From: Thelephora terrestris
Lineage: Eukaryota; Basidiomycota; Agaricomycetes; Thelephorales; Thelephoraceae
Length of the DNA: 64,000 nucleotides
NCBI GenBank assembly: GCA_015956445.1
Contig: WIUZ02000002.1
Coordinates: 3,224,001-3,288,000, forward strand
Direction of reading: 5' to 3'
Shown: piece after piece, positions 6,124 to 42,328 of the stretch
How the letters are laid out: every line of letters starts with the position of its first letter
Position numbering within the stretch: the stretch's first letter is position 1
Notes under the pieces: model-generated
Databases searched by the model: none
What the model was told of the DNA's origin: nothing
Seen by the model: the letters and a program-made list of their open reading frames with translations, nothing else
Made by a program: the position numbers and the translations under genes

Positions 6124-7153
6124 TGTCAGGGCCACTCTACCCCAACAACTACCAGTTCACTGAGCCGACTCCGCAGAGTACTCACTAGTCCAACTAGCTT
6201 GTGAGAGAACGATCACGTCTCTATTCTTCCGGTAGGTTGTCCGAGGTCACTACAAGTCAGGTCGAAATCCTAAAGAGAAACCCAACCTAAACCGCACTTC
6301 GTTCGGTTTAACAAGCAAGGGTTGATCCCTACAACAGGATTGATGACTCCACCAGTTGATCGACTGGACGCTCGAGGTGTTCTAATATGACTGCTGGGAG
6401 TCTATAGTTACGAGGCGCAGTTGACGCGCAGAGCGGGAGGGAGAGCAGATGGGGGTGTCTTGGATCAAACAAGAAACTCTGACTTGTCCTTAACTGCAAC
6501 TGGGCTGAGAAGGGCAGAGGATTTCCTGAGGTAACAAAACTAAGGTACTACGATACAGCCACAGTTGCTACTTATACTAAAAGGAGTGGCCATGACGTCA
6601 ATACCCTAATATACCCTTATCAAGTCCGAACAAAGGGAGATAAGGAGTGTGAGAACGCTAAGTAAGGGAAGCGAACAAAGGTGACGCGTGGGAGAATAAA
6701 GGACAAAGGGCCTTACTAGCGTGTGAAGGATTGCATAAAAGATAACGAATGTCCGCATGAAACATAGGGGTAAAGATAACACTAGTCCTAAAAGAAATAG
6801 GGGCATGGGGTCATGAAAGTTCATACCTGGGGATCAAACCCAAGGGTCAGGTGGCAATCTCCCTTTACATAGTTGTACCAGCGGATTCGGGAGTAGAGCC
6901 ATGCAAACATCCCTTGTTGTCTGTAGGCGGTAACAGCATCACGGACTAGTGGCAACCTCAACGTACGTCCGAACATGAGGAGGTCGTGCCTAGACTCATG
7001 GGACATGAGGGATTACAGATTCGCCGGCGTTTCACGCTAACGGCTACTCCACATGCGCTGGGCTAACCAGAAGAATCCTAAGGCGATGCTTCCGAATAGC
7101 GGCGAGTCCTTCCTCCGGTTAGGAGACTGTGATGTGACTGTCCACGTGTGTGA

Positions 7154-7381
7154 TCAGGGTCCAGGGTTGATCGTAATCGTAAAGTCATGAGGGGTCGTAA
7201 AAGGGGTTCGTGATGTCATAAAGGGGTCATCAGGGTCTTGAGACCTATTTTTAGTGCGCGCGCGTTCTAGGCGTTCCGGAACGAAGTTCTTCCAAGGCCG
7301 TCCCGCGGGCCGAGGTGTCAGCTTGATATAGTAAGCCGACGATGATGGTACAGGGGCGGAAGTTGATGTGACCCGGACCAA
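7154..7381 (-). CDS. small LTR-internal reading frame, minus strand (family A)
   Basis: A 75-residue frame starts at 7,381 with MVRVTSTSA, only ~120 bases from the divergent plus-strand start at 7,501. It contains AYYIKLTP and PWKNFVPE blocks. Related frames occur in the same place in the other family A copies, at 25,293-25,502 and 40,645-40,854, with many silent-looking differences, so the peptide seems conserved. The twin in the right LTR lies at 16,472-16,699. A second minus block at 6,821-7,006 (LPLVRDAVTAYRQQGM) also recurs near 49,100-49,237. Function unknown; it runs in the same sense as gag-pol. Confidence 0.5.
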   Translation of the reverse strand: MVRVTSTSAPVPSSSAYYIKLTPRPAGRPWKNFVPERLERARTKNRSQDPDDPFMTSRTPFTTPHDFTITINPGP

Positions 7382-7500
7382 TGAGGTTCGTCGAGGTAGG
7401 TCACGTGAAGGATCACCGATCTAGGCTATAAGAAGGACGTCTTCTTGGAGCCATCCTTGATCAGCAACACCAGCAACTTCCCCATCATCTTACCAAAACA

Positions 7501-9105
7501 TGTCCTTCCCCAACAACCATACCTACAAAGTCGCCAACGGCATCTCCACCATCTCTCGCATCGACCGTCGTGCCGCCGCCCGCAAGTCCTACGCTTGTGC
7601 AGCTGGGACTCCCTATACCACGGATGACCAGGTATGGGGGAGACCTAGAGCTTTGCTTCGTTAGCGCTAACGCCTTCCTCTAGGTAGAGGTTACGTTCTT
7701 TTGGGCGTTGATGTCCAGCTAACGGCTTCTAGATCTTGGAGGTCGTCACGGAGGTGGACCCTGAACGTCTCAGGGAGACTATGCCTCATTTGATGGGGTT
7801 GACCTGGGACGATGAGCTCTGGGTCCGTACAATCATTGCCGAGAAGGTGGCCTTCCGAATGAGGGGTAGGTTCGGAGAGTTGGAGCATCCGATCAAGAAG
7901 GAGCTCTGGTACACCCTGCAAAGGGGAATCTACGATCAGGACCTATTGGAGCACGGGGCAACCGTTCCTCGGGCCGTCCGCCATGCCACTGCTGCCACGT
8001 CATTGTTGTGGTCGCTCGTTCGGGAGGGGGAGAGCAAGGTAGGTTCTCCGTTTGAATATTCGAGTATGACTCTCGAATAATCAAACTGCCTAGGTTGAAC
8101 GTTTGGAACGTGAGGTGAAGGAAGCGAAGGCAGACGTCCTTCGTCTATCTGCGGAGGGTCTTCAGATGAAGGAGACCTTGGCCGCCTTCCAGCAGGGGAC
8201 GAACGAGGCGTTGGAGGCAATGGTCGCCAACCATCAAGAGTTGATCGCCGGGTTGAAGGTTCGGGACAACAACATCAAGGGAGCGTTGGCCAGGAGGGAT
8301 GAAAAGGTAATGCCGCTTTCATCATTTGCTTAGAATGATGGAAGCTGACATTTCCTAGACCGAAGAACTCGAGAACGTGGTGGCCGTGTTGACAGCGCAG
8401 CTCGAGTCCTTGCAGGACAAAACCTGCAACTGTAAGGAGGGTCCCAAATTGGTTGGTCAGGGGACCGCCGACGTTCCGTTCGAGCTGGAGTACGCCGACG
8501 AGGTGGTACTCCCATCTCCTAACCCGTCGTCCTATGCGACGCCTCCGATCGAGAACGCGGTTCCAGTTCCGACTCCAGGTCCGGCTTCCACCTTGGCCGC
8601 TTCCGACAAGGAGAACTGTGGGCGCTGCGTCTTGCAGCCGATCCATCAGTTGGTGAAGATCGAGGACGAGGTCATGGAGGTTGACCGAGCTGAAGATGCT
8701 CCGAGGGTCGCCGAGGTACGTCCGGTGACTAAGGGGCAACGTTGCAAGCGCTCTCGACGCCGTCCTGCTCATCGCATGGCTCCATCGGCTAATCCTTACC
8801 CTCGACCAGTTGAGTCGGATGGTGACCAGTCTGGTCGAGGTGGGGGACGAGAGTTCAGCTATCGGGTCCACCGTCCCTACCGACAGGTCGAGTCGGAGAT
8901 CCAGCTTCGCCACCAGCTACGACTCGCAAGACAGGATCCCACCCAGGGGTCCGACGAGGGAGACGGAGGGTCGCTTGCCGACTACGTCGATAGTGCTGGA
9001 GGGCAGTCACCCAGTGATGGCGATGTGGGACCAGGTGTTCCAGAGTTCAGTGACATCTGGGAGGCTGATCGGTCCGCTCGAAGGAGTCTCTTCCTATCGG
9101 CTTGA
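7501..9105 (+). CDS. LTR-internal coiled-coil coding region, antisense to gag-pol (family A)
   Basis: Four open blocks follow each other on the plus strand: about 7,501-7,629 (begins MSFPNNHTYKV), 7,736-8,038 (LMGLTWDDELWV, KKELWYTLQRGIYD), 8,095-8,308 (a heptad-rich segment, LEREVKEAKADVLRL) and 8,360-9,105 (coiled coil, then an acidic, Ser/Pro-rich and Arg-rich tail). The gaps are short and have GT and AG borders, like fungal introns. The same blocks recur in the right LTR (16,819-18,423), in A3 (from 25,621) and on the minus strand of A2. I recognise no known domain. It could be an accessory factor of the retroelement or a captured host gene. Confidence 0.5.
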
Positions 9106-9424
9106 ACTAGTCGTTCAGCTGAGTGCCGAAGATGGTGACGCCATGTTCGGGGAGGTTCTTGCGAGGAGGGGCCAGCACTACGATCTCCGAGATGGACGTT
9201 TGGCGACCTTCAGGCCTGCCGTAGATAGAGTCGACTTTTAAGGATGTAGGATAGCACTTGTATAGCTCGTTGTGGATTCGCTGGGAATAGTACGCGCGTG
9301 TGTGTGTTTCGAATGATTGGCATGAAGGATAAGGAGTGTGAAGCATTCCAAACATAAGAAGTGGTAAGAAGAGTTCGAAGAAAGAGCGTGTTATAAAAAG
9401 TTTAAAAATACCATGTTCCTGACA

Positions 9425-9436
9425 TTATCCTCTTCC
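9425..9436 (-). other. polypurine tract of A1
   Basis: In element sense the text is GGAAGAGGATAA directly before the 3' LTR. Plus-strand DNA priming in Ty3/gypsy elements uses such a tract, and it confirms that A1 reads right to left. Confidence 0.75.
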
Positions 9437-9444
9437 TGGATTGA

Positions 9445-12400
9445 CTAGTCCCTAGTCAATGATCCAATAGGCCATTTTCGAACATCAGTATGAATTGTCA
9501 TGGGACGATGATCTAAAAGGCCTATCCTCTTCCTGCCACGTTTCTTCCTGGTGGTAACGGGTTTGCCTGACATTGTGCCATCAGGTAGTCGTCGTGGTGC
9601 GCCTGGGAACTGCTTATAGAATTCGGCAATTAGTTCTGGGGAATTCTCGAGGTTGTCTTCATCTTCCCAAGAATTCTCAGTGTCCGGCCAGCCTAACCAC
9701 TTGACGAGGTATTTGAGGTTACCGTGTAAGAACTTGGCATCGAGGATTTTCTCCACTTCCCATTCGGGTTCGCCTTCAACGATATCCGGGGGTGGGCGAG
9801 GGTGATTGGGGTTAAGAGGATCTTCGTGGTAGGGGAATATCTTGGAGACATTCCAGACGGAATGAACGTTCTTCCAGTAAAGGGGTAGCTTGAGTCGATA
9901 GGCATGTGTGCCAATTTTCTCAATGATCTCAAATGGACCAGAGTATCGCTCGGATAGCTTTCGGGAAGGACGGTTCAACGCTAGGTCCGAATTATCCAGA
10001 AGGACCTTGTCTCCAATATTGAATTCGGGGGTCTTGTTCCGATGACGATCGTAGAACTTCTTCATGTCTTCTGCTGCTTTGGTTAAAGATTCTTCGGTCT
10101 GTTTCTGCACCTCGTGAAGGTGAGATACGAAGTCTTCGACTGAATCGATGGGGGATTGAACTCGAGGAAGGGAACCAATGTGTGGGTGATAACCGTAGTT
10201 CGCATAGAAAGGCGTGGTCTTGAGACCAGAATGATAACGGTTGTTGAGAGCAAATTCGATAACAGGGATCCAGTCAACCCAATCGTCTTGGTGATAGGAT
10301 ATGACTGTGCGAAGGGCCTGTTCGACTTCTTGGTTGGTTCGTTCCGATTGTCCATCGGTCTGTGGATGATAAGCAGTAGACAGAGCAAGTTCCACACCTA
10401 GTTGTTTGCAAATTTCCCTGAAGGATCGTGAGGACATTTGGGGACCTCGATCAGTGATGATCTTCTTGGAGGTGCCATGACGTTTCCAAATGTTCTCCAG
10501 GTATAACTTGGCAAAGCCACTAGTATCAAGGGTATCAACGGTGGGGGCGACGTGTTTCATCTTGCCTCGTTTATCGGTATAGGTAACGACCGAATTGTAT
10601 CCTTGGCAAGGAGGGAGACCAGTGATCAGATCTGTGGTAACAACTTCCCAAAACCCTGGTGTAACATCGATGGGTTTGAGGAGTCCGTGAGGCTTCTGAT
10701 TACGGTTCTTCTGCGTTTGGCATACATGACAGTTCTGAACTCGTTCCTTGATTTCTGTCCGCATCAGTGGCCAGTAGAAGTCTCTCTGTATGACTTCTAG
10801 ACTGCCTTTAATTCCGGGATGAGCTGCAGGTCCTAAAGCGTGCAACTGCTGGAATACTTCTGAGCGTAGGAGGGATGGAACGTAGATCTTGCCACGATAA
10901 GTCCATAGTTCGCCTAGTAAGGCCCAACCGTTGGGTAGACCGTCCATTTCGGAAGACAGTTGACTTTCAGTCATCGTGTTGAATCCTTGAATGAGTGGAT
11001 CCTGTGATTGAGCGATGGCGATTTCTTTTCCAAAGTTTCGCTCATTGAGGGTTTTGGTGATGACCGAATTGATCTTCTGTGCTTCGAAGTTGTCTTTGAA
11101 GAGGGAAGGAGGTAGGAGGATTTGTTCTTCGTCGGGTACATCCTTTGGGACGTGGTCTGCGCGACGAGAGAGATGGTCAGGGACAGATGATTGTCTGCCT
11201 GGTCGATAACGAAATTCGAAATAATAGTTGGCCAAGATCTGGGACCAACGTGCCTGTCGCTTGGACAGTTTTCGCTTCGTCTTGAAATACTGAAGGTTGT
11301 TGTGATCGTTAAGGATGGTGATGGGGAACTTAGTTCCCATAAGGAAGTGATGGAAGGCTTCTAGTGCGCGGATAATAGATAGGAGTTCTCGGTCGTGAGT
11401 GTCGTAACGCGTCTCCGGATCTGTGAAACCTTGAGAAAGACAGCCAATTGGTCGCCATTTTCCTTCGTCATCTTGCTGTGACAGAACAGCACCCCAGGCA
11501 TAACCTGAAGCGTCCGTTTCGAGAATGAACTGTTTCTCGTTGTCTGGATGAAGGAGAAAGGCTTCATGAAGGAGGAGTTCCTTCAACTTTTGGTAGGCGT
11601 CTTGTTGAGGAGTTTCCCATTTCCAGGGAGCGTCTTTTCGTAAAAGGTCGTTAAGAGGTCGTGCAATGATGGAGAAGCCAGGGATGAAACGGCGGTAGTA
11701 GCTCATGATGCCTAAGTAGGCTCGTAGCTCGGAAACGGTAGTGGGTACTGGCCAATCGGTAATTCCTGCGAGTTTGACAGGGTCTGGACGGATTCCTTTG
11801 CCCGAGATGTAATGTCCTAGATAAGGAATCTCTTTCTGCATTATAACGCACTTCTCCGGTTTAAGGGATAGTTTGTGTTCTCGGCAGAGTTGGAAGATTT
11901 CTTTTAGAACGGAGAGATGAAATTCTTCGGGGCTAAGGAGTTTTCGTGGGTCGTAGGAGGTTCCAATGCCTATGTCGTCGATGAAGGTTCCCGTATCGCC
12001 TCGTCGTATCTGAACGATGAAGATAGAGTCCATCATGGTCTGAAAAGTGGCAGGAGCGTTGCACTGTCCAAACGTCATGACGAGGGATTCGAAGAGTCCT
12101 CGGTTGGTGGTGAACGCGGTTTTCCATTCGTCGCCTTCGCGCATTCGAACATTGTAGTATCCAGAGCGAATGTCGAGGGCAGAGAAGTAGAGACAGCCTT
12201 TCCATTTCTGGATAAGCTCATCAATACGAGGAAGGGGGTAAGCGTTCTTCTTGGTGATGTCGTTGAGTCTTCGGTAATCGATAACCATACGTTTCTTGCC
12301 ATCCTTCTTATTGATAAAGAAGACAGGGGATGCCAAGGGTGACTCCGAACGACGGATTCGACCATTTGCGAGGTTTTCTTCGATGAAGATATCGAGTTCC

Positions 12401-13263
12401 TTCTGTTCGTCGTAGGAAAGGGGATAGGTATGTGGTTTCCAAAGCTGTGATTCCCAGTCGGGTACTAGCTCGATTTTGTGATCCCATTTTCGGTGTGGGG
12501 GTAATTCTTGATAGGTCATTTCTTCAAATACATCCGCATACGCCTTGAGTGGTCCTTTTCGAATGTCTTCGATGGTAAGGACTTTCTTGTTCTTCAAGTC
12601 GTCTATAGCCCAACGCATGGCAGCGTTTTCTTTGGCATTGATAGAATGAGCGATACGATTGATGTCGAATTGAGAAGAGTACTCCGTGATAACCGAAGCG
12701 TAATCAAGTGCAGAGGGTAGAACGTCGGATAAAGATTGATGAGCGATGCATGAGGAGGGACATCTGGTGAATGAGACTTGTCCAGTTCGCCAATCGATTT
12801 CCGGATTATGGGTTCGTAACCAGGTCATACCCACGATCATAGTCTTGGTGCCTATGTCCGTGACAAGGAACCATTCGGCAGAAATGTGTCCTTTGAAGCT
12901 AAGGGTAAGCTTCGTTTGATGGGTAATGGTAGTGGCATTGAACGTGTCATCTGCATTGATGGCATAGATAGGGGTAGTGAGCTTCCGAGTGGAGAGGGCA
13001 TGATCTTGAACAAATGAGCGTGAAATGTAGGTGGCGGTTGCGCCCGAATCAAGGAGGGCTTCGATGTCGTAAATTTCGTCAGATGAAACTGCAATCTGCA
13101 GTTTGATCATGGGGAATAGTCGTGAAAGTCGTGACGATGTTCTGTTGACAACTTTTTGGTTTTCGAGAGCGGCGAGAGGATGCAAAGAGAGTGGGAAAGC
13201 AGATTCGATTCGCTGCTTTAGAGAGGCTAAAAGTACATGTGATTCAGGAAAAGAGGGAAGCAT
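9445..13263 (-). CDS. pol: A1 pol polyprotein (protease, RT, RNase H, integrase, chromodomain)
   Basis: This single 1,272-residue frame contains, in order: an aspartic protease motif LLDSGATATYI near residue 70; reverse transcriptase with LDIRSGYYNVRM and the catalytic FIDDIGIG (a variant of YVDD); RNase H with LETDASGYAWGAV; the integrase zinc finger (HALGPAAHPG... CHVCQTQKN) and core with TTDLITGLPP and TDRGPQMSSRSF; and a C-terminal chromodomain, YLVKWLGWPDTENSWE. The chromodomain places it in the chromovirus branch of Ty3/gypsy, whose integrases target chromatin through that domain. It starts 65 bases after the gag stop in another frame; how the two are coupled is not shown. Confidence 0.95.
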   Translation of the reverse strand: MLPSFPESHVLLASLKQRIESAFPLSLHPLAALENQKVVNRTSSRLSRLFPMIKLQIAVSSDEIYDIEALLDSGATATYISRSFVQDHALSTRKLTTPIYAINADDTFNATTITHQTKLTLSFKGHISAEWFLVTDIGTKTMIVGMTWLRTHNPEIDWRTGQVSFTRCPSSCIAHQSLSDVLPSALDYASVITEYSSQFDINRIAHSINAKENAAMRWAIDDLKNKKVLTIEDIRKGPLKAYADVFEEMTYQELPPHRKWDHKIELVPDWESQLWKPHTYPLSYDEQKELDIFIEENLANGRIRRSESPLASPVFFINKKDGKKRMVIDYRRLNDITKKNAYPLPRIDELIQKWKGCLYFSALDIRSGYYNVRMREGDEWKTAFTTNRGLFESLVMTFGQCNAPATFQTMMDSIFIVQIRRGDTGTFIDDIGIGTSYDPRKLLSPEEFHLSVLKEIFQLCREHKLSLKPEKCVIMQKEIPYLGHYISGKGIRPDPVKLAGITDWPVPTTVSELRAYLGIMSYYRRFIPGFSIIARPLNDLLRKDAPWKWETPQQDAYQKLKELLLHEAFLLHPDNEKQFILETDASGYAWGAVLSQQDDEGKWRPIGCLSQGFTDPETRYDTHDRELLSIIRALEAFHHFLMGTKFPITILNDHNNLQYFKTKRKLSKRQARWSQILANYYFEFRYRPGRQSSVPDHLSRRADHVPKDVPDEEQILLPPSLFKDNFEAQKINSVITKTLNERNFGKEIAIAQSQDPLIQGFNTMTESQLSSEMDGLPNGWALLGELWTYRGKIYVPSLLRSEVFQQLHALGPAAHPGIKGSLEVIQRDFYWPLMRTEIKERVQNCHVCQTQKNRNQKPHGLLKPIDVTPGFWEVVTTDLITGLPPCQGYNSVVTYTDKRGKMKHVAPTVDTLDTSGFAKLYLENIWKRHGTSKKIITDRGPQMSSRSFREICKQLGVELALSTAYHPQTDGQSERTNQEVEQALRTVISYHQDDWVDWIPVIEFALNNRYHSGLKTTPFYANYGYHPHIGSLPRVQSPIDSVEDFVSHLHEVQKQTEESLTKAAEDMKKFYDRHRNKTPEFNIGDKVLLDNSDLALNRPSRKLSERYSGPFEIIEKIGTHAYRLKLPLYWKNVHSVWNVSKIFPYHEDPLNPNHPRPPPDIVEGEPEWEVEKILDAKFLHGNLKYLVKWLGWPDTENSWEDEDNLENSPELIAEFYKQFPGAPRRLPDGTMSGKPVTTRKKRGRKRIGLLDHRPMTIHTDVRKWPIGSLTRD

Positions 13264-13328
13264 AGGGATATCGTCCGCAATCTGAGAAAAATCAAGACTC
13301 GCCGGTGTTGTCTGTCCGGTCTGTCCAT

Positions 13329-15215
13329 CTAAAAAGACTCCTGGTCTTCTTGTCCCATGTCTGGTCCATAATTCGGGGCTCCTGGGATCGAGCCAAAAGG
13401 TTCTTCTTCCAGGTCAATAAGATTTTCTTCTTCTTCTGCTTCTTCTTCGTTGTCAAACACTCCTGCTTCTTCGAATGCTGCCAAGGGATCTTCCAATTCG
13501 TATTCATCGTTCCCTTCCTGTCCAAAACCTTGGATGCCGTAGATGTATTCTAGAGCGTGCTCTAGTTGTTGAACATGGGTGGAGTCCAACTGTCGAATGT
13601 TGGCCGTGCAATTCCTAGCGTAATGGCCAGGTTGGTTACAGGCGTAACAAATGACTTTTCGAGGAGGGGGTTTGGATCCAGAGGGCTTGGAGGGATTCGG
13701 TTTCTTCGAAGAAGATGCCGGTTTGAGATTTCCACCTGTAGGATAAGGAGCTAGACGAGGGTGTGCGGCTTTGACAGGAGGTTTGGACTGCGGTCGACGT
13801 AGAAGGACTCGGGGTTGTTGGCGCATGGCGTCGACTTGCATAGGTCCATAACCTTTGACATTAGAAGGTTGATAGTTTTGGTGTTGGGTGTTCTTTCCAA
13901 AACTATTTCCGTATTCGTGCCTGTCGTATTCCCTAGTCGAGTCTAGCTGTTCTTGCATTTGAATCAACGCGTCCTTCCACTCATCGTAAGTGGTAGGAGG
14001 TTTTTCGCGCATAAGGAGTTGCGTGCGAAAAGTTGGGAAGGTGTTCTGCTTCAAATGGAAGAAGGCCTGTGGTTTGGTGATATCAACCGCTTGTCGTCTG
14101 AAATCTTCGAACGCGTCGTAGAAGGCTCGGCACTTTTGACCTTTGTTTTGTTTGTAAGCCATCATCCTTCGATGGAAGTATTGGGGAGCGTTTTGTATTC
14201 CGTATAGCTTCAGGAATTGTGCGGTGAAAGCATCCCAATTATCGAAGTAATGAGGTTTGACGTTTCCAGCGGTACTGGTGGCCAAAGCGTTGCGAACATT
14301 CTGTGCCCATTGCTTGGTTTTATTGCACTTGCTGAGGAGATTAAGGGTGACAAGAATTCGATTCTTCGTGTACCTCATCGCTTTAGGCTTCGTTTTGAAG
14401 TAAGCGGCAAGTCGGTCCAAAAAGGGTTGTGCGTCCGTTTCTGCTCCAGAAAACTCTTCAGGCCTGGGAAAGTCTTTAATGTCTTCAACTCCCGGTTCCA
14501 ACGGAAACGACTCATAGTCAACGTTAGCAGTAGGGGTGGATAGGATAGGGTTGGTAACTGTCTGAATCCGTTGAGGAGGAGTGATAGCCGTAAGGAGGGC
14601 ATTGAAGTTAGCTTGGGTAGCCAATGGTGCGGCCTGTGCAGCTGTAAGCTGTTGGTTCAGCGCTTGGTTTTGCGCTTGAAGCTGCGTCTGTAAGGCTGCT
14701 GATTGTACCAAGTAGCGTTGCAGATCAGTTGCATCTGCGACGTTATAGGTATCATTTCCCAAGGTAACGTTGTTGACTGCCATGATTATTGGAGGTGTCT
14801 GAAGAGGTGGTACAGGTAGATGGCTTGGCGTTGTCGGTGTAAGAGGTCGTGAAGCAACTGAAGGTTCTGGAGAACGAGGAAGATTTGGAGAAGGAGGAGG
14901 AAATACCGGGGAGGAATGGTGAGACGAGCGAGGAGATTGTTGAGAGACTGGGGTGACTCTTCGAAGAGCGTCTTCGTAGACGGAGTGATCTGAAGAGGCT
15001 GGGGTAACCGGCCTAGGTTCTAACGGTTCGTCGTCGTCAAGGAAACCTCCAGGTAAATCTGAAAGTTGTGAAGAAGAGGGGAGAAGAGCGAGTTGTCGTG
15101 GGACAGGGGTGTGGAGAGGGGACTGAGAAGTAGGAGTTGATTGAAAGGAGGGGATGCGAGGGGTGAAACGAGATAAAAGAGTTGAGCTGTTTGAAGCGAG
15201 AGTAGCACGGTACAC
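13329..15215 (-). CDS. gag: A1 gag protein with CCHC zinc knuckle
   Basis: This 628-residue frame has a Ser/Pro-rich N terminus, a Gln-rich coiled-coil segment (QLQAQNQALNQQL), a retrotransposon capsid region (FSGAETDAQPFLDRLAAYF through DEWKDALIQMQEQLD), and a nucleocapsid knuckle CYACNQPGHYARNC near residue 535, followed by an acidic C terminus (EEAEEEENLIDLEEE). Gag forms the virus-like particle. It lies directly inside the 5' LTR, upstream of pol. Confidence 0.93.
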   Translation of the reverse strand: MYRATLASNSSTLLSRFTPRIPSFQSTPTSQSPLHTPVPRQLALLPSSSQLSDLPGGFLDDDEPLEPRPVTPASSDHSVYEDALRRVTPVSQQSPRSSHHSSPVFPPPSPNLPRSPEPSVASRPLTPTTPSHLPVPPLQTPPIIMAVNNVTLGNDTYNVADATDLQRYLVQSAALQTQLQAQNQALNQQLTAAQAAPLATQANFNALLTAITPPQRIQTVTNPILSTPTANVDYESFPLEPGVEDIKDFPRPEEFSGAETDAQPFLDRLAAYFKTKPKAMRYTKNRILVTLNLLSKCNKTKQWAQNVRNALATSTAGNVKPHYFDNWDAFTAQFLKLYGIQNAPQYFHRRMMAYKQNKGQKCRAFYDAFEDFRRQAVDITKPQAFFHLKQNTFPTFRTQLLMREKPPTTYDEWKDALIQMQEQLDSTREYDRHEYGNSFGKNTQHQNYQPSNVKGYGPMQVDAMRQQPRVLLRRPQSKPPVKAAHPRLAPYPTGGNLKPASSSKKPNPSKPSGSKPPPRKVICYACNQPGHYARNCTANIRQLDSTHVQQLEHALEYIYGIQGFGQEGNDEYELEDPLAAFEEAGVFDNEEEAEEEENLIDLEEEPFGSIPGAPNYGPDMGQEDQESF

Positions 15216-15441
15216 TCGAGCTTCAGCTGGAGATGAGAGACGTTGTAAGGAGGGTTGAGAGGGTGAAGGCTGTGTACGACGCCTTTGAGGGGTGTCTTCT
15301 GTAGACGAATCTGATTCCTCTCCTGAGACAGGGGGCCGAAATATACTTCTGTTAGACGAAATGGTTGTCCGTCTTTAAGTAACAGTGATAGTTTCGCGAT
15401 GTGGTGGGTGAACAAGGTACCGGCTGGTAGTTTTGTTACTC

Positions 15442-18400
15442 TGTCAGGGCCACTCTACCCCAACAACTACCAGTTCACTGAGCCGACTCCGCAGAGTACT
15501 CACTAGTCCAACTAGCTTGTGAGAGAACGATCACGTCTCTATTCTTCCGGTAGGTTGTCCGAGGTCACTACAAGTCAGGTCGAAATCCTAAAGAGAAACC
15601 CAACCTAAACCGCACTTCGTTCGGTTTAACAAGCAAGGGTTGATCCCTACAACAGGATTGATGACTCCACCAGTTGATCGACTGGACGCTCGAGGTGTTC
15701 TAATATGACTGCTGGGAGTCTATAGTTACGAGGCGCAGTTGACGCGCAGAGCGGGAGGGAGAGCAGATGGGGGTGTCTTGGATCAAACAAGAAACTCTGA
15801 CTTGTCCTTAACTGCAACTGGGCTGAGAAGGGCAGAGGATTTCCTGAGGTAACAAAACTAAGGTACTACGATACAGCCACAGTTGCTACTTATACTAAAA
15901 GGAGTGGCCATGACGTCAATACCCTAATATACCCTTATCAAGTCCGAACAAAGGGAGATAAGGAGTGTGAGAACGCTAAGTAAGGGAAGCGAACAAAGGT
16001 GACGCGTGGGAGAATAAAGGACAAAGGGCCTTACTAGCGTGTGAAGGATTGCATAAAAGATAACGAATGTCCGCATGAAACATAGGGGTAAAGATAACAC
16101 TAGTCCTAAAAGAAATAGGGGCATGGGGTCATGAAAGTTCATACCTGGGGATCAAACCCAAGGGTCAGGTGGCAATCTCCCTTTACATAGTTGTACCAGC
16201 GGATTCGGGAGTAGAGCCATGCAAACATCCCTTGTTGTCTGTAGGCGGTAACAGCATCACGGACTAGTGGCAACCTCAACGTACGTCCGAACATGAGGAG
16301 GTCGTGCCTAGACTCATGGGACATGAGGGATTACAGATTCGCCGGCGTTTCACGCTAACGGCTACTCCACATGCGCTGGGCTAACCAGAAGAATCCTAAG
16401 GCGATGCTTCCGAATAGCGGCGAGTCCTTCCTCCGGTTAGGAGACTGTGATGTGACTGTCCACGTGTGTGATCAGGGTCCAGGGTTGATCGTAATCGTAA
16501 AGTCATGAGGGGTCGTAAAAGGGGTTCGTGATGTCATAAAGGGGTCATCAGGGTCTTGAGACCTATTTTTAGTGCGCGCGCGTTCTAGGCGTTCCGGAAC
16601 GAAGTTCTTCCAAGGCCGTCCCGCGGGCCGAGGTGTCAGCTTGATATAGTAAGCCGACGATGATGGTACAGGGGCGGAAGTTGATGTGACCCGGACCAAT
16701 GAGGTTCGTCGAGGTAGGTCACGTGAAGGATCACCGATCTAGGCTATAAGAAGGACGTCTTCTTGGAGCCATCCTTGATCAGCAACACCAGCAACTTCCC
16801 CATCATCTTACCAAAACATGTCCTTCCCCAACAACCATACCTACAAAGTCGCCAACGGCATCTCCACCATCTCTCGCATCGACCGTCGTGCCGCCGCCCG
16901 CAAGTCCTACGCTTGTGCAGCTGGGACTCCCTATACCACGGATGACCAGGTATGGGGGAGACCTAGAGCTTTGCTTCGTTAGCGCTAACGCCTTCCTCTA
17001 GGTAGAGGTTACGTTCTTTTGGGCGTTGATGTCCAGCTAACGGCTTCTAGATCTTGGAGGTCGTCACGGAGGTGGACCCTGAACGTCTCAGGGAGACTAT
17101 GCCTCATTTGATGGGGTTGACCTGGGACGATGAGCTCTGGGTCCGTACAATCATTGCCGAGAAGGTGGCCTTCCGAATGAGGGGTAGGTTCGGAGAGTTG
17201 GAGCATCCGATCAAGAAGGAGCTCTGGTACACCCTGCAAAGGGGAATCTACGATCAGGACCTATTGGAGCACGGGGCAACCGTTCCTCGGGCCGTCCGCC
17301 ATGCCACTGCTGCCACGTCATTGTTGTGGTCGCTCGTTCGGGAGGGGGAGAGCAAGGTAGGTTCTCCGTTTGAATATTCGAGTATGACTCTCGAATAATC
17401 AAACTGCCTAGGTTGAACGTTTGGAACGTGAGGTGAAGGAAGCGAAGGCAGACGTCCTTCGTCTATCTGCGGAGGGTCTTCAGATGAAGGAGACCTTGGC
17501 CGCCTTCCAGCAGGGGACGAACGAGGCGTTGGAGGCAATGGTCGCCAACCATCAAGAGTTGATCGCCGGGTTGAAGGTTCGGGACAACAACATCAAGGGA
17601 GCGTTGGCCAGGAGGGATGAAAAGGTAATGCCGCTTTCATCATTTGCTTAGAATGATGGAAGCTGACATTTCCTAGACCGAAGAACTCGAGAACGTGGTG
17701 GCCGTGTTGACAGCGCAGCTCGAGTCCTTGCAGGACAAAACCTGCAACTGTAAGGAGGGTCCCAAATTGGTTGGTCAGGGGACCGCCGACGTTCCGTTCG
17801 AGCTGGAGTACGCCGACGAGGTGGTACTCCCATCTCCTAACCCGTCGTCCTATGCGACGCCTCCGATCGAGAACGCGGTTCCAGTTCCGACTCCAGGTCC
17901 GGCTTCCACCTTGGCCGCTTCCGACAAGGAGAACTGTGGGCGCTGCGTCTTGCAGCCGATCCATCAGTTGGTGAAGATCGAGGACGAGGTCATGGAGGTT
18001 GACCGAGCTGAAGATGCTCCGAGGGTCGCCGAGGTACGTCCGGTGACTAAGGGGCAACGTTGCAAGCGCTCTCGACGCCGTCCTGCTCATCGCATGGCTC
18101 CATCGGCTAATCCTTACCCTCGACCAGTTGAGTCGGATGGTGACCAGTCTGGTCGAGGTGGGGGACGAGAGTTCAGCTATCGGGTCCACCGTCCCTACCG
18201 ACAGGTCGAGTCGGAGATCCAGCTTCGCCACCAGCTACGACTCGCAAGACAGGATCCCACCCAGGGGTCCGACGAGGGAGACGGAGGGTCGCTTGCCGAC
18301 TACGTCGATAGTGCTGGAGGGCAGTCACCCAGTGATGGCGATGTGGGACCAGGTGTTCCAGAGTTCAGTGACATCTGGGAGGCTGATCGGTCCGCTCGAA

Positions 18401-18742
18401 GGAGTCTCTTCCTATCGGCTTGAACTAGTCGTTCAGCTGAGTGCCGAAGATGGTGACGCCATGTTCGGGGAGGTTCTTGCGAGGAGGGGCCAGCACTACG
18501 ATCTCCGAGATGGACGTTTGGCGACCTTCAGGCCTGCCGTAGATAGAGTCGACTTTTAAGGATGTAGGATAGCACTTGTATAGCTCGTTGTGGATTCGCT
18601 GGGAATAGTACGCGCGTGTGTGTGTTTCGAATGATTGGCATGAAGGATAAGGAGTGTGAAGCATTCCAAACATAAGAAGTGGTAAGAAGAGTTCGAAGAA
18701 AGAGCGTGTTATAAAAAGTTTAAAAATACCATGTTCCTGACA
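15442..18742 (-). repeat. A1 long terminal repeat (5' LTR in element sense)
   Basis: This is the partner of the repeat at 6,124-9,424 and carries the same open frames at offset 9,318 (for example 16,472-16,699 minus and 17,695-18,423 plus). The right edge is followed by the TGCAC duplication and by the continuation of the DDE_1 gene. I could not name a tRNA primer site at the inner edge (about 15,420-15,441). Confidence 0.92.
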
Positions 18743-19702
18743 TGCACCCAATTACACCAAGGCAACACAGGAGCTGAAATTCCTCTTTGAAAGTTCTGGG
18801 AGTGACACCTTAGTACTGGTCAACAATGAAGACCATGAAAAGCTACGTCATCAAAATCCTCGCACCATACTTCCAATCAAACTGCCAGCAGCTTGATTCA
18901 ACCAACCAGTTGTGCGTTTGGCAAATTGATTGCTGGTCTGTCCACCAATCATTAGAGTTTTGTACTTGGATGTGAACAGCTTATCCATGGATCCAAATCC
19001 ATTATGTTCCTGCCAATTGCACTGGCCTCTTCCAGGCCTGTGATATTTGAATTCAAAGGATTCTCAAGCTTGCCATCAGGAGATCTGCCCTCAAAGCCAT
19101 TTTTGATGAAACCATGAAACAGCTGAATGCTGGTGTTCCAGCCAGCAAAGTTACATTTGAGAAGAGGTTACCTGTTGTTCGGGACCAGTCTGTGGGTTGG
19201 CTTGTAAATGGATATGAAGCTATCAACAAGCATGAAATTGTAAAAAAGGTATGTTGTTCCCTTAAGGATTTCCAATTTTTCCTCTTACATATCTTGTTTT
19301 ACACATTCAAACTTTGCCCAACAGGGAAAGGGGGCTTCAACCTTTCTATGAGAGTTTGACCAGTGAAAAAGCCAAGACTGCTCTTGCAGAGCAAACTGCA
19401 GCTAGTCCAGGGTTTGTAAAGAGTCTAAATTGGCCAGAAACAGGGAGTGAGGAAGTTGTGGTTGGGGAAGAAGTCCTATATGATGAAGTCGACTCATCAA
19501 GGACAGTTGAGGTGGAGGTGGGGGCTCTGATCTTGCGGGAGCCAAGCCATATCATAGGAGAGTGGGAATCCAGGCCAGTTGATGACAATGATGATGATGT
19601 GCACATCATAGGGCCATTTATGGGGAAGTATACAGGATGTGACTTTTCATCCTGTACAGCAACCAATGAGTGGATGGAGTGGGACGTGGCATCCAATGTG
19701 TA
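18743..19702 (+). pseudogene. DDE_1 transposase, right part
   Basis: The coding text cut by A1 resumes here after the duplicated TGCAC. It shows the second catalytic region (WQIDCWSVHQS near 18,922), then the HYVPANCTGLFQ block near 19,000, which precedes the third acidic site in this family, and FEKRLPVVRDQSVGWLVNGYEAI near 19,150-19,220. A short AT-rich gap near 19,248-19,325 looks like an intron. The C-terminal frame to 19,702 is acidic (DDNDDDVHIIGPF). Frame shifts show decay. Confidence 0.6.
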
Positions 19703-20087: not shown

Positions 20088-20358
20088 TGTCATGAACACG
20101 TGACATAGTAGCCAAGATCACACAAGTAATTCAAGACATTGGTCTTATTCGCAGAAATAATAGTACATTGGCAGCTAGCAAGAACTACAAATTCAGACAA
20201 GGACAAACGGGTCTACGTCGCATGAACAGTCCTGAGCAAACGGGCAACGATGAGCGAAGTGGTGAGGGTTATGAACACTCTCAGGACAATACAAATACGC
20301 TCGCGTCACCGGATCCTGCCAACACTCCCTACACCCCAACACATCATGATATAGACTA

Positions 20359-21096
20359 TCATGCATCTCCCACTTCACGTCTGACAAGGCTGCACTCACT
20401 AAGGCGAATCCATACCTGTCCTGGAGACCCGCCACTTCCACCTTCAACTTCATCCGAACCTGCCGTGACTTGTTGGAGGGATGACAACGTTGACCAGAAC
20501 GAGTCATCGGACTCTTGCGGTTCTTCTTCCTCTGGGACCTCTCCACCATCTGGCGAACTGGGGCAGGACTCCAGGGAGGGGATGGAGGGAGAGGAACGCC
20601 CTGATCCTGGCGGTGGCGAAGGGATGACTGGGGACTTGCAAGGGGGGTCGGTGCAATAAGCCCCATGGCATTGGTGTCCGAAATATCGGAAGAGAGATGC
20701 CTGGAAAGGTCCCCAATGTTCCAAAGCAAAGTGAGAGAAGTCATCATTTAAACTATTCATGATGACGTACATGAGGTCGACCCGCTTTTCCAGCTTCGCA
20801 ATCCTATCCTCTCTCTCCCTCTCCATGGCGTCCAACAAAAGGACGGCTCCGGGGTGACCCGCTTGAACACGAGGCCTAGAAAGCCTGGGGTTCTCGTACC
20901 CAGCTTGTTCCCAGAACTCGGCAGGGGCGTTGTGGGCGGTGAGGAAGTCCACGGCAACCTGGTTGTCATGGGCAATGTTGGCGGGGGAGTCATACAAGTG
21001 TTGCTCCACGTCGTAGGGAGCAACCATCTCGAAAGACGGAGTAAAGGGGGTGGCAGCAGCATTGAGCATGGCATTGTTGGCAACAAAGGCAGACAT
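20359..21096 (-). CDS. B1 beta frame (unknown, coiled coil)
   Basis: The frame from the ATG at 21,096 (MSAFVANNAML) extends upstream to 21,207, but the inner ATG is the one kept in all five copies. Visible parts are an N-terminal segment with YDVEQHLYDSPANIAHDNQ, an EFWEQAGYENP block, a short heptad region (DRIAKLEKRVDLMYVIMNS), HQCHGAYCTDPPC, and an acidic Ser/Pro tail. A second frame overlapping its 3' half is also open and conserved. A TATA-like gtatttaagtc lies upstream. Not recognised. Confidence 0.5.
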   Translation of the reverse strand: MSAFVANNAMLNAAATPFTPSFEMVAPYDVEQHLYDSPANIAHDNQVAVDFLTAHNAPAEFWEQAGYENPRLSRPRVQAGHPGAVLLLDAMEREREDRIAKLEKRVDLMYVIMNSLNDDFSHFALEHWGPFQASLFRYFGHQCHGAYCTDPPCKSPVIPSPPPGSGRSSPSIPSLESCPSSPDGGEVPEEEEPQESDDSFWSTLSSLQQVTAGSDEVEGGSGGSPGQVWIRLSECSLVRREVGDA

Positions 21097-21714
21097 AGTA
21101 GTGATGAGTATTTGAGAGAGGAGAGGAGTGCTGGTGATTGTGGGTGGAAAAGAGGCAATGGAGGGAATGATCATTAATCCCCCTGACTTAAATACATCCT
21201 GACTCAAAGAAAACCAAAAGGGGAAAACAATAACCCATTATCCATTTAACGTCCTCATTAGGATAAACGAACCCTCAACCCCAATCGCGATCCCATCAAT
21301 TCAGAGAAATCCCCATCCGTCCTCTATTACCACCGTGAAACACGAGAAATCCCCACCGATCATGAGAAATCCCCACCAGTCTTCTATTACCACCATCGAT
21401 CGCGAGAAATCCCCATTACGCTCTAAATGACTCCTTTACTATTGTTCCCCTATTTCATTTCGACATTTATCGCTACCTCGCCCGACCTACCCTAAACTAC
21501 GCACAGACCATGTTGACTCCTGTTTGACTCGTTGTAAATAAATGACTCCTGTAGAGGATTGGGTATATAAGGAAGAGCGTTCGCTCCTTTCTTTTCCCCA
21601 TTCTCAATCTCTTCTGTACTCCTCTACCCATAACTTGAATAAAAGTAAGCTGAGGAATTCTCCTCACTGCTTACCTCTTCTAACTCATTTCAGCAGGAAT
21701 CCTCCTGCCAGTGT

Positions 21715-22338
21715 ATGTTCAGTGCCCCCAACCCCTTTCCCTCTACCAGTCCAGTCCAGCGACCAGTCGTCCCTGACGCCAGAAGACCTATCTGGGAGTA
21801 TAAACTCATCAGGAGTCTTCAAGTAAACCGGACCACCGGTTTACTCACTCATTTCCCTTACTACCGACCCTTTGCAGCTCTCGACGCCGGAGTCACTACT
21901 CCCCCTTTTCTCCTAGGAGCGGATCACCAATTCCTTTGGAATTCGGATCTTACTGAGAGCGTCCTCGCGACTGTCTACTTCAGTATCAGTCCAGCCTTTT
22001 ACTTCCCTTCCCCACGTGTTCATCTCACTACTAACATCCATACCCATTCTCCTGCTATCATCGTTCTTTGGTGGGAGGTCCCAACTGAATTACCTTATCC
22101 AGTTATAGAATATCTTGTCAATTTCGAACGCCTTAGCGACCAAGACTTCAAACCTTTTGTGCAGCAACTCAATCAATTCTGCCAAGACTACCACTCACCC
22201 GTTCACCCTTATCAGACAGAGTCACCCCTCTCTCTTGATATTCCTCCTCCCCTTGTTTCCACACCCGGAACCCCTTTCAAGACTAGACCCGACACCCCTC
22301 ACCCTTCCGCTAATCCTCTAGCGCCCCACAAACAGTAA
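21715..22338 (+). CDS. B1 alpha frame (unknown, 207 aa)
   Basis: The frame begins MFSAPNPFPSTSPVQ and has a central hydrophobic and aromatic region (TGLLTHFPYYRPFAALD, LATVYFSISPAFYFPSP, SPAIIVLWWEVPTELPYPV) and a Pro-rich tail. About 140 bases upstream is ggtatataagg, a good TATA box, kept in the other B copies. The same protein is open in B2 (28,731-29,330), B3 (39,581-40,204) and B4 (42,349-42,972). I cannot assign it to a family. It may be structural, but this is a guess. Confidence 0.5.
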   Translation: MFSAPNPFPSTSPVQRPVVPDARRPIWEYKLIRSLQVNRTTGLLTHFPYYRPFAALDAGVTTPPFLLGADHQFLWNSDLTESVLATVYFSISPAFYFPSPRVHLTTNIHTHSPAIIVLWWEVPTELPYPVIEYLVNFERLSDQDFKPFVQQLNQFCQDYHSPVHPYQTESPLSLDIPPPLVSTPGTPFKTRPDTPHPSANPLAPHKQ

Positions 22339-22358
22339 GCAGGCCTACAACCCTGACA

Positions 22359-24240: not shown

Positions 24241-25292
24241 TGTCAGGGCCACTCTACCCCAACAACTACCAGTGCCCTGAGCCGACTCCACAGAGTACTC
24301 ACTAGTCCAACTAGTTGTGAGAGGATGGTCACACCTCTATTCTTCCGGTAGGTTGTCCGAGGTCACTGCAAGTCAGGTCAAAATCCTAAAATAAAACCCA
24401 ACCTAAACCGTACTTCGTTCGGTTTATCAAGCAAGGGTTTATCCCTACAACAGGATTGATGACTCCACCAGGTGATTGACTGGATGCTTGAGATATTCTA
24501 TAGGATGAACACTGGGGTTCTATAGTTACAAGGCGCAGTTGATGCGCAGAGCGGGAGGGAGAGCAGATGGTGATGTCTTGTGTTCAAACAGAAAACTCTG
24601 ACTTGGCCTTAACTGCAACTGGGCCGAGAAGGGCAGAGGATTTCCTGAGGTAACAAAACTAAGGTACTACAATACAGCCACAGTTGCTACTTATACTACT
24701 GGAGTGGCCATGATGTCAGTAACCCTAATATACCCTTATCAAGATAGAACAAAGGGAGATAAGGAGTGTGAGAACACTAAGTAAGGGAAGCGAACAAGTA
24801 TAATGCGTGGGAGGATAAGGACAAGGGGCCTTACTAGTGTGTGAAGAAATGCATAAGGGATAACAATAGTCTGCTTGAAACATAGGGGTAAAGATAACAC
24901 TAGTGCTAAAAGAAGTAGGGGCATGGGGTCATGAAAGTTTGTACCTGGGAACACACCCAAGGGTCAGGTGAGGATCCTTCTTGAATACTTCTTGTAGAGT
25001 GGCTAAGGATAGGAACTCAATGCATCCCTTGTTGTTGGTAGGCGGTAACAGCATCACGGACTAGTGGCAACCTCAACGTACATCCGAACATGAGGAGGTC
25101 AGGCCTAGACTCATGGCACATGAGGGATTACATGCTTTGCCGGTGTTTCGCACTAACGGCTACTTCCACATTCACTTGGTTAACCAAAGGGGGACTAAAG
25201 GCAGTCCTTCTGATTAACGGTGAATCCTTTCTTTGGTTAGGAAGACTGTGATGTGACTGTCAACATGTGTGATCAGGGTCCAGGGTTGGTCG

Positions 25293-25502
25293 TTATCGTG
25301 ATGTCATAAATGAGTCATCAGGGTTGTAAAGGGGTTTGTAAAAGGGGTTGTCAAGGTCATGAGACCTATTTTTAGTGCGCGCATGTTCTAGGTGTTCTGG
25401 AACGAAGTTCTTCCAAGGCCATCCAGCAGGCTGAGGTGTCAGCTTGATGTAGTAAGCCAATGATGATGGTACAATGGCAGAAGTTGATGTGACCCGGACC
25501 AA
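25293..25502 (-). CDS. A3 small LTR-internal frame
   Basis: This counterpart of the 7,154-7,381 frame in A1 starts MVRVTSTSAIVPSS and keeps AYYIKLTPQPAGWPWKNF. It is one of three diverged copies of the same peptide in the window, which is why I take the frame to be real rather than chance. Function unknown. Confidence 0.45.
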   Translation of the reverse strand: MVRVTSTSAIVPSSLAYYIKLTPQPAGWPWKNFVPEHLEHARTKNRSHDLDNPFYKPLYNPDDSFMTSR

Positions 25503-25620
25503 TGAGGTGCATCGAGGTAGGTCACATGAAGGATCACCGATCTAGGCTATAAGAAGGACATCTTCTTGGAGCCATCCTTGATCAGGAACACCAGCAACTT
25601 CCCCACATCTTACCAATATG

Positions 25621-28050
25621 TCTTTCCCCAACAACCATACCTACAAAGTCACCCAAGGAATCTCCACCATCTCTCGCATTGACCGTTGTGCCGCCTCTTG
25701 CAAGACCTATGCCTGTGAGGTGGGGGTTCCGTACAGCTCTGATGACCAGGTAGATCATCTTTCGACAGTTTGATGTCAAAAGACTGGTCTAACATCTTCT
25801 AGATCTTGGAGGTCGTCAAGCAGGTGGACGCCGAGCGTCTCAGGGAGATGATCCCACATTTGATGGGGTTGACCTGGGACAATGAGCTCTGGGTCCGTTC
25901 CATGATTGCCGAGAAGCTGATCCACCAAATGAGGGGTTGGTTCGGAGAGTTGGAACACCCTATTAAGAAGGAGTTGTGGTATACCCTAGGGCGAGGGATC
26001 TACGATCAGGATCTATTGGAGCACGGAGCAACCGTTCCTCGAGCCGTTCGCCATGCCACTACGTCCACTACCCTGCTCTGGTCGCTGGTGCAAGAGGGAT
26101 ATAGCAAGGTGGGTTGCTAGGTTGTTCCGAGTATGACTCTCATTAAACATAGCTTCCATAGGTTGAGTGTTTGGAAAGGGAGGTGAAGGAAGCAAAGGCA
26201 GATGTCCTTTGGTTGTCCTCTGAGGGTCTCTTGATGAAGGAGACCATGGCTGAGCTCCAAAAGAAGATGAATGAGGCATTGGAGGCGATGGTAGCTAACC
26301 ATCAGGAACTGGTCGCAGGCTTGGGCGTTCAGGACGACAACATGAGGGGTGCCTTGGATAGGAGGGACGATCGCCTGGATAGGCACTCAAAGAATATCAG
26401 GGATGAAAGCAATAAGGTAGCTTTCCTCATCTTGAATGTGAAATGAGGAAGGCTGACATTTCCTAGGTGGATGAACTCAAGGACGAGGTCGCTGTCCTGA
26501 CTGCGCAGATCGAGTCCTTGCAAGTCAAGATCTGTCGCTGCGACAAGTCACCCCAATTGGTGGGCCAGGGTTCGGCCGATGTTCCCTTCGAGTTGGAGTC
26601 CCTGGGGACAAACCCCTAATTACTGACCAGGTACTTTTTGAGTACATTGTAGTTCCATGTACGATGTACTAACACTTTGCTGGGCAAGGAAAAGCTAAGT
26701 TCTTTCAGAATGTACTAAAGAATATAACTACTAATTCCCAGCTCAGTGCATTGTGGGAACATTCAAAAAGTACTGAATCATGTGACCACAATGTCCCTAA
26801 TCAGTAATTGTTCAGTACTTTTTGATTTTCCCAAAGAAAGTGATCAACAAGTACCTGCGCTGCACATTGTGGTTTCAATCAAGATTTACTGGGTCATGTG
26901 ACCACAAAGTACCAAATTTCACATGAGTGGCCCAAAGAAAATGTGATCACAAAGTACTGAGACTGGGTAAATCTTGAACACTTTTTGAAAGAGACCAAAA
27001 CATACTGAATCGTTGCACAGTACTTTTTGAACGATTTAGTATGTTTTGGTCTCTTTCAGAAAGTGTTCAAGATTTACCCAGTCTCAGTACTTTGTGATCA
27101 CATTTTCTTTGGGCCACTCATGTGAAATTTGGTACTTTGTGGTCACATGACCCAGTAAATCTTGATTGAAACCACAATGTGCAGCGCAGGTACTTGTTGA
27201 TCACTTTCTTTGGGAAAATCAAAAAGTACTGAACAATTACTGATTAGGGACATTGTGGTCACATGATTCAGTACTTTTTGAATGTTCCCACAATGCACTG
27301 AGCTGGGAATTAGTAGTTATATTCTTTAGTACATTCTGAAAGAACTTAGCTTTTCCTTGCCCAGCAAAGTGTTAGTACATCGTACATGGAACTAAAATGT
27401 ACTCAAAAAGTACCTGGTCAGTAATTAGGGGCTTGTCCCCGGTGAGTACGCTGATGAGGTGGTACTCCCATCGCCTAATCCATCATCCTATGCCATGCCT
27501 CCGGTAGAGAATGAGGCTCCTATCCCTGCTCCGGCTCCGGCTTCTACTCTGGCCGACTCCGACAAGGAGAACTGTGGGTGATGTCCAATGCAACTGATCA
27601 GCCAGTTGGTGCCGATCAAAGAGATGGCCGTTGACCAGGCCGAAGATGCTCCGAGGGTTGCCAAGGTACGTCCGGTTGTAAGGGGTCAGCGTTGCAAACG
27701 CTCCCAATGCCATATCGCTCATCGTATGGCACCCTTGTCCTATCCTTACCCTCGTCCAGTTGAGTCGGATGGTGACCAGTCTGGTCGAGATGAGGGAGGA
27801 CAGTTCCAATACCAGGTCAACCGTCCCAACTGACAGGTCGAGTCGGAGGTCCAGCGTAGGCACCTCACTCGACTCACAGTACAGGATCCCGCCCAGGCCT
27901 CCGATGAGGGAGACGGAGGGTCTCTCTTCGACTACGTCGACAGTGCTGCCGAGCAGTCACCCAGTGATGGAGATGTGGAACCAAGTGTTCCAAAGTTCAG
28001 TGACATCTGGGCGGCTGGTGGGTCCCTTCGAAGGATTCTCTTCGTATTGA
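25621..28050 (+). pseudogene. A3 copy of the LTR-internal coiled-coil region
   Basis: Open blocks matching A1 occur at about 25,621-25,749 (MSFPNNHTYKVTQGIS), 25,806-26,108 (LMGLTWDNELWVRSM), 26,162-26,414 (LEREVKEAKADVLWL) and beyond 26,466. The last block is divided by the fold-back element 26,600-27,444. The GT/AG-bordered gaps stand at the same places as in A1. It is a fossil with a few breaks. Confidence 0.5.
26600..27444. mobile_element. CACTG-type fold-back element, 845 bp
   Basis: The ends are CCCTGGGGACAAACCCC and GGGGCTTGTCCCCGGTG, near inverse copies, and the target triplet AGT is repeated on both sides (26,597-26,599 and 27,445-27,447). The arms match as a long palindrome to a centre near 27,020 (for example gtactttttgaacg and its inverse). 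A 3-bp duplication with CACTG-like ends fits the CACTA/CMC superfamily. There is no coding region. It interrupts the A3 coding-like tail. Confidence 0.85.
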
Positions 28051-37847: not shown

Positions 37848-38188
37848 ATCAGCTGATAATTTGGAGCATTAGTCACCACATAACACACAGACCATGCAGT
37901 GCTGTGCACGGACCATGTGTCACGAACGCGTGACATAGTAGCCAAGATCACACAAGTAATTCAAGACATTGGTCTTATTCGCGGTAATAATAGTACAAAG
38001 GTGACTAGCAAGAACTACAAATTCAGACAAGAACAAACGGATCTACGTCGCACGCACAGTCCTGAGCAAATGGGCAACGATGAGCGAAGTGGTGAGGATT
38101 ATGTACGTTCTCAGGACAATACGAATACGCTCGCGTCACCGGATCTTGCCAACACTCTCTACACCCCAGCACATCATGATATAGACTA

Positions 38189-40204: not shown

Positions 40205-40295
40205 GCAGGCCTACAACCCTGACATGACCCCTGTATTGTGATAGGTTTGGATAGCAAGAGTGTTATTGAACTGTAGAGGTCACGTTGGCCTGACA

Positions 40296-42216: not shown

Positions 42217-42328
42217 TGTTAGCACGAAACACCAGCGAAGCATGTAATCCCTCATGTCCCATGAGTCTAAGCCCAACCTCCTCATGTTTGGACATACGTT
42301 GACATGCCTCCATTCTCTGGAGTACTTG

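Follow-up and report, generated by a model that had tools for sequence, protein, structure and literature searches.

Each LTR of a Ty3/gypsy family in Thelephora terrestris, here called family A, very probably holds a spliced gene of its own, kept by selection and running antisense to gag-pol, with the anatomy modelled below. The material is a 64,000-nucleotide stretch of DNA (the window), together with copies drawn from the window's own 40.6-Mb genome, whose gene content and introns of about 50 nt fit a basidiomycete. An intron-containing antisense gene that lies inside LTRs and is kept intact in most of the copies examined is unusual.

The reference element, A1, spans positions 6124-18743 and is bounded by the target site duplication (TSD) TGCAC. 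Its 3.3-kb direct repeats form the LTR pair of a single element, with termini TGTCAGG...CCTGACA and their sense on the minus strand: the 3' LTR (TGTCAGGG...CCTGACA, 3302 bp) lies at 6124-9425, and the 5' LTR, at 15442-18743, is 100% identical to it and carries the antisense gene too, with coordinates shifted by +9318. Between them, two overlapping minus-strand frames (9445-15374) encode a CCHC-type gag and a pol with protease, RT, RNase H, integrase, SH3 and chromodomain. Pfam matches above cut-off were RVP_2, RVT_1, RT_RNaseH, Integrase_H2C2, rve, SH3_Tf2-1 and Chromo in pol; in gag, zf-CCHC was matched and Retrotrans_gag fell slightly below the cut-off. The order protease-RT-RNase H-integrase, the C-terminal chromodomain and the CCHC gag are those of a Ty3/gypsy chromovirus. 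TG..CA ends with a 5-bp target duplication are found in A1 and, with a perfect duplication, in 27 of the 29 genome copies that have both ends visible, none of which has an interior. A previous sequence-only reading of the window had taken the repeats for LTRs of a Ty3/gypsy element with the longer gene antisense, and the identical LTRs, the TSD and the minus-strand gag-pol bear this out.

Other members of the family were compared with A1. The older solo LTR A3 (24241-31508; TSD AAGGA) is interrupted by two insertions, one at 26599-27445 and one at about 28058-31190, and is roughly 75-86% identical to A1 in nucleotides, depending on the piece. It was claimed earlier that the older copies A3 and A2 keep the gene's start region. 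This holds for A3, where promoter and start are preserved and the compared pieces of exons 1-4 are free of stops, and in part for A2, where the promoter is kept and the start is present but diverged. Another A-family element, L076, has LTRs that are 99.9% identical over the visible 1506 nt and is missing some 0.93 kb that A1 has in its gag region. Near-perfect palindromes (26599-27445 and 40992-42216; arms 98-100%, loops of 15 and 47 nt) lie in or beside old A copies.

The LTR gene is read from the plus strand, antisense to gag-pol, as four exons in one frame (465 codons) separated by three GT..AG introns, all in phase 0. Including the overlapping frame ORF2, it extends over 7500-9241 and thus lies wholly within the LTR. 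What had been noticed as a plus-strand multi-block coding region is a clean four-exon gene for 465 amino acids, conserved far beyond chance in copies from its own genome. A putative promoter, TATAAG at 7427-7432 on the plus strand, stands 73 nt upstream of the ATG and occurs in A2 and A3 as well. The start context of exon 1 (7500-7631) reads CAAAACATG in 46 of the 47 copies, and the remaining one has a gap. Exon 2 (7733-8038) is predicted with low confidence to be all-helical (mean pLDDT of the structure model, 64.4), and exon 3 (8094-8306) is coiled-coil-like, with sub-threshold Pfam matches only. Exon 4, or ORF1 (8359-9105), contains, as judged by eye, a C-x-C pair, a Pro-rich stretch, a basic KRSRRRP and an acidic tail. 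Intron 1 (7632-7732) resembles, in the A copies printed, two back-to-back introns (52 and 49 nt long in A1) that both have GT, CTAAC and TAG; its counterpart in the sister family A' is a single 52-nt intron. The LTR gene protein gave nothing above the Pfam cut-off, no match at E 0.001 in a PDB sequence search and no match in a fold search. A pattern search of IMG/VR for relatives of exon 2, in which records close to the window's genome may be left out, returned 11 matches and no relative.

For the analysis of selection, we assembled 40 genome stretches, 37 ranked by identity at 7200-7600 and three taken from an exon 2 protein ranking, and added 22 further loci from 30 ranked by exon 2 protein, the remaining eight being places already in the set; L009-L038 and L076-L078 are those picked through the exon 2 ranking. 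Conservation of the promoter and of exon 1 is inflated by the ranking of 37 of the 40 stretches on 7200-7600. Removal of seven fragments and of five second or identical LTRs from 59 aligned rows left a set of 47 copies, A1 included.

Over the 34 copies that span the whole gene (A1 included; 561 pairs), pairwise dN is 0.025 and dS 0.257, giving a dN/dS of 0.098; the sequence-only reading had asked for this ratio over many family copies, and the value is well below 1. The ratio is 0.036 in exon 1, a stretch that overlapped the copy-selection query, 0.070 in exon 2, 0.013 in exon 3 and 0.185 in exon 4. In the same copies, the other forward frames give 1.17 or more, and the reverse frame that shares wobble sites with the LTR gene ranges over 0.07-0.28 and exceeds the sense value in every one of the four exons. 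The reading frame is perfect in 49 of the 59 aligned rows; seven are truncated or interrupted, two (L049 and L061) have one stop and one has an in-frame loss of 3 nt. Among the 47 copies, omega is 0.118 for variants present in at least six copies, 0.156 for those in three to five, 0.39 for those in two and 0.41 for singletons. Stop-making variants, from the rarest class to the commonest, number 1, 0, 0 and 0 against 10.8, 2.8, 4.0 and 6.6 expected (24.2 in total). Of the 47 rows (A1 included), none has an indel relative to A1 in exons 1-3, one has an indel in exon 4 up to 8715 and none at 8716-9105; outside the exons, the rows with an indel number 28 at 7001-7499, 45 for intron 1, none for intron 2, 41 for intron 3 and 35 for the 3' flank. 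Between A1 and A3, pN/pS of the LTR gene is 0.23-0.36 by exon piece, a value that includes the dead phase of A3. Judged by these codon-level patterns, the LTR gene is protein-coding and under purifying selection.

The comparison of A1 with L076 provides a yardstick: three pol pieces give ratios of 0.013-0.031 and two gag pieces 0.063 and 0.32, and the LTR gene is therefore constrained, but less than pol. We may also hypothesize that only the antisense RNA matters, through a duplex with genomic RNA and silencing, the open frame being a by-product. From its position, the complement of the entire transcript would indeed be present in genomic RNA; however, the codon-level constraint and the contrast between exons without indels and introns 1 and 3 of variable length remain unaccounted for, and we give this hypothesis very little credence.

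Linkage among 170 variants decays with distance: r2 is 0.26 for sites up to 10 bp apart, 0.037 at distances of 100-200 bp and 0.02-0.03 further away, against 0.021 after permutation. Linkage thus comes close to background over some 200 bp, and the majority of variants occur in more than one copy. For these two reasons we take the copies for descendants of a recombining pool and reject the idea of long-dead, diverging copies. Between 7500 and 9105, third-codon positions differ more among the 34 copies (mean 0.149) than do introns (0.084) or the 3' flank (0.078).

ORF2 (8819-9241, plus strand) is a second conserved frame overlapping ORF1, perhaps reached through alternative splicing. Its ATG at 8819 is invariant in the 47 copies, and the frame is open from 8810 through the stop at 9241 in 46 of them, the exception being the truncated L015. 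Variable sites by ORF2 codon position number 2/0/12 at 9107-9151, 5/4/11 at 9152-9196 and 5/7/7 at 9197-9241, against 27/27/28 past the stop. In the tail that belongs to ORF2 only, omega for shared variants is 0.178 in its own frame versus 2.6 in the ORF1 frame, and for singletons 0.56 versus 1.11. Within the overlap, 32 changes alter both proteins, versus 41 expected, and site-wise no change makes an ORF1 stop, versus 5.7 expected, yet copy L049 has an ORF1 stop there. Single-frame omegas in the overlap are mixed: 1.28 for singletons and 0.56 for shared variants in ORF1, 0.58 and 1.14, respectively, in ORF2.

The candidate alternative intron is a 94-nt segment in phase 0 (8716-8809, plus strand), with GTACGT at 8716 and a CAG acceptor at 8809 in 47 of 47 copies, and its excision would lead exactly from ORF1 into the ORF2 frame. 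The segment is also constrained as ORF1 coding sequence (omega 0.33-0.46), and the ORF1 tail that follows it resembles the A' tail (two-sequence BLASTP, E 2e-6). In A', we found no frame-switching acceptor of equal quality, and the A-A' comparison of ORF2 gave E 0.041, which we do not count as homology. We suggest that two C-termini would be chosen by retaining or excising the 94-nt intron.

The gag-pol transcript would start from a promoter of its own. Its presumed TATAAG is at 6571-6576 on the minus strand. Located 34 nt downstream of this TATAAG (at 6576), in a block whose conservation over 42 aligned sequences mostly reaches 95% or more, is TAGTTTTGTTAC (6531-6542, minus strand), the presumed R start and self-primer, which is complementary over 12 nt to the primer-binding region beside the 5' LTR (15426-15441, minus strand; GAGTAACAAAACTACC in the sense direction); 300 mononucleotide shuffles gave at most 11. 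The PBS may pair with the start of A1's own RNA, as in Tf1-like self-priming. If R starts at 6542, U3 would correspond to 9425-6543, and the entire antisense gene would then lie inside U3.

The start region had also been interpreted as a divergent gene pair with a shared bidirectional promoter, an idea now dropped in favour of the separate presumed sense promoter (TATAAG at 6576, self-priming motif at 6542), which is about 0.85 kb away from the antisense gene's TATAAG at 7427. The supposed partner, a minus-strand frame once read as starting MVRVTSTSA and in fact LVRVTSTSA... (7154-7381), is not a gene. It has TTG at 7381 in place of ATG in 47 of 47 copies, a premature stop in 19 and a length change in 26, and its variable sites number 18/20/13 by codon position. 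The interval of some 120 bases between the two starts is real, at about 119, but one of the two 'genes' is no gene. Accessory genes under selection had been proposed, and the plus-strand antisense gene answers to this description; the minus frame shows no conservation of a coding kind.

The association of the gene with gag-pol extends to a sister family, A'. Among the 44 matches listed from an RT search (89 candidates), we found eight A elements at 99-100% and three A' elements at 77%, and by coordinates the antisense gene flanks gag-pol on both sides in all eight and all three. The A' gene, as modelled in L079, has 506 codons and 33% amino acid identity to A; introns 1-3 occupy matching places in phase 0, and there is one more intron. 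In a set of five A' copies (L079 and four chosen from the A' exon 2 listing), four are intact and L083 is broken, and pN/pS is 0.113 (0.093, 0.064, 0.053, 0.010 and 0.274 in exons 1-5). In the last 300 nt of the A' ORF1, pS is lowered in both frames, to 0.066 and 0.082 versus 0.23-0.34 in exons 1-4. A host gene captured once and since drifting in dead copies would explain the introns, which give the gene a cellular-type structure; we find this scarcely believable, since the gene is constrained in two families and flanks each of the 11 gag-pol copies among the matches listed on either side, with strand and place always identical.

Between A and A', the LTR gene has diverged faster than RT (33% versus 77% amino acid identity). 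This may suggest that the target of the protein is the host, or the passage of the element from cell to cell or nucleus to nucleus, rather than the element's own cycle. Such a role would be like that of MMTV sag, a gene of U3, where the A gene too would lie. No host or PDB homologue was found, and we regard such a role as improbable.

In the exon 2 search, whose ranking favours intact copies, none of the best 150 of 601 A candidates has a stop, and a manual count gives stops in 11 of the best 150 of 568 A' candidates. The exact 30-nt left LTR end occurs 350 times in the genome, and it is joined to the internal region eight times. L046 and L047, solo copies separated by 8.5 kb, show no difference in the part that was aligned, yet their TSDs differ. 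In our reading, the many lone copies are young solo LTRs, produced by LTR-LTR recombination, with their genes still intact.

The 350 exact left ends against eight gag-pol junctions, as well as the identity of L046 and L047 despite their different TSDs, would also fit another scheme: the 'LTRs' may be mobile gene units (TGTCA...TGACA, 5-bp duplications) moved in trans by a gypsy integrase, with the gag-pol element as a composite of two units. Family B, a second set of sequences in the window, lends this scheme some support. It comprises five 2.3-kb units with LTR-like ends (TGTCAGGG...TGACA) at 20088-22358, 28710-30998, 37918-40224, 42328-44694 and 46249-48564, two of the five having a clear 5-bp TSD, and a by-eye comparison of the RT and B lists revealed no gypsy RT flanked by two B units among the matches listed. 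Nevertheless, ordinary solo-LTR formation accounts for the same facts, and we consider the mobile-unit scheme very improbable.

Family B has coding capacity of its own. A conserved 245-codon frame (pN/pS 0.13 ahead of the overlap) is overlapped by a 184-codon Cys/His-rich frame with a value of 0.06 in its tail, and pS is low in both frames of the overlap. Among the best 150 of 391 genome candidates, ranked by protein likeness, 130 have no stop (manual count). Homology between the A and B proteins was not detected (E 0.15), and the structure model of B ORF1, with a confidence of 38.5, is worthless. At L080, a pol-like frame on C13, copia-type as judged by eye, has a B unit on either side; B has therefore probably inserted into other elements there.

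What the LTR gene protein does may be approached from these features. We favour, as an evenly balanced guess, an accessory protein that serves the replication of the element itself. The gene would be driven from its own promoter within U3, antisense to gag-pol, and this orientation would let introns persist, because the genomic RNA carries their complement and would not be spliced there. As U3 is present once in genomic RNA, reverse transcription would copy the gene into both LTRs. The protein may be oligomeric, through its coiled coil, and possibly nuclear, given the basic KRSRRRP, and it would prefer the RNA or the copy that made it. Such a preference bears on the main difficulty: with hundreds of copies able to supply the protein in trans, it is not easy to see how selection stays strong unless the protein acts preferentially in cis. 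Any one of three things could explain it: cis-preference, silencing of the majority of copies, or frequent arrival in low-copy genomes.

Alternatively, the protein may be a self-limiting regulator, whose gene dosage, solo LTRs included, counts copies and damps transcription or retrotransposition. This would work like Ty1 copy number control, though distinct from it. A promoter-like start of its own, a gene intact in lone LTRs, the excess of left ends (350) over gag-pol junctions (8), and basic and coiled-coil stretches suited to a nuclear oligomer are all consistent with this hypothesis. However, selfish copies should lose a trans repressor, yet the family keeps the gene at a dN/dS of about 0.1, and we consider such a regulator rather unlikely, if worth keeping in mind.

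Several known systems resemble the A gene in part. MMTV sag, of an animal retrovirus, is a protein gene within U3 on the sense strand; the A gene would share the U3 placement if R starts at 6542, but is antisense. The coding regions of HTLV HBZ and HIV ASP, from unrelated retroviruses, reach outside the LTR. Both are antisense genes, as is the A gene, and their expression is driven by a promoter on the minus strand of the 3' LTR (PMC10186651). A gene for an HIV-1 antisense protein (HAP) has been claimed in the U3-R region of the LTR, with RNA and protein reported (PMC1654176). Like the A gene, known here from sequence alone, it is antisense inside an LTR, so the bare idea of an antisense LTR gene has a precedent; unlike the A gene, it is retroviral, its initiator lies near and overlaps the sense start, and the abstract mentions no introns (PMC1654176). 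For an antisense promoter of the HBZ, ASP or HAP kind, family A offers a conserved TATA and start context only, which may represent one.

Among gypsy elements, including the fungal Boty, known extra antisense genes are located between pol and the 3' LTR (PMC7264820). The plant antisense ORFs (Grande gene23, RIRE2, Retand, PvRetro13) share with the A gene their orientation, their presence in most family copies and their lack of clear homologues, and nuclear localisation is reported for some of the products (PMC7264820). These ORFs are internal, between pol and the 3' LTR (PMC7264820), whereas the A gene is wholly in the LTR, so that each element has two and solo LTRs retain it. With respect to the aORF-3R class, the A gene is antisense to gag-pol and is not located between pol and the 3' LTR. 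Among fungi, Boty of Botrytis is a gypsy element that, like A, has a single additional antisense gene, brtn (Zhao et al. 2011, as cited in PMC7264820 and PMC8365987); unlike the A gene, brtn is placed in the pol-3' LTR class (PMC7264820). The rice gypsy elements Retrosat2, RIRE3 and RIRE8 resemble A in several respects: their LTRs exceed 3 kb and have TGTCA-type ends, and they carry an additional gene whose evolution is faster than that of pol. This gene, ORF0, is however internal, upstream of gag-pol (PMC3485330). Our literature search, partial and with subscription papers outside its scope, found no gene wholly inside a fungal LTR, and none is described in the accessible parts of PMC8365987, PMC5408684, PMC9674265, PMC10186651, PMC3485330 and PMC10787394.

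If the A gene is as modelled, a retrotransposon uses its terminal repeat as a gene locus, which would be copied to both ends of the element in each cycle. A gene in this place outlives the loss of the element body, and a single genome may thus come to hold very many intact copies. This raises the question of why a protein available in trans from so many copies should be under such strong selection, and it suggests that sequences annotated as 'solo LTRs' may be protein genes.
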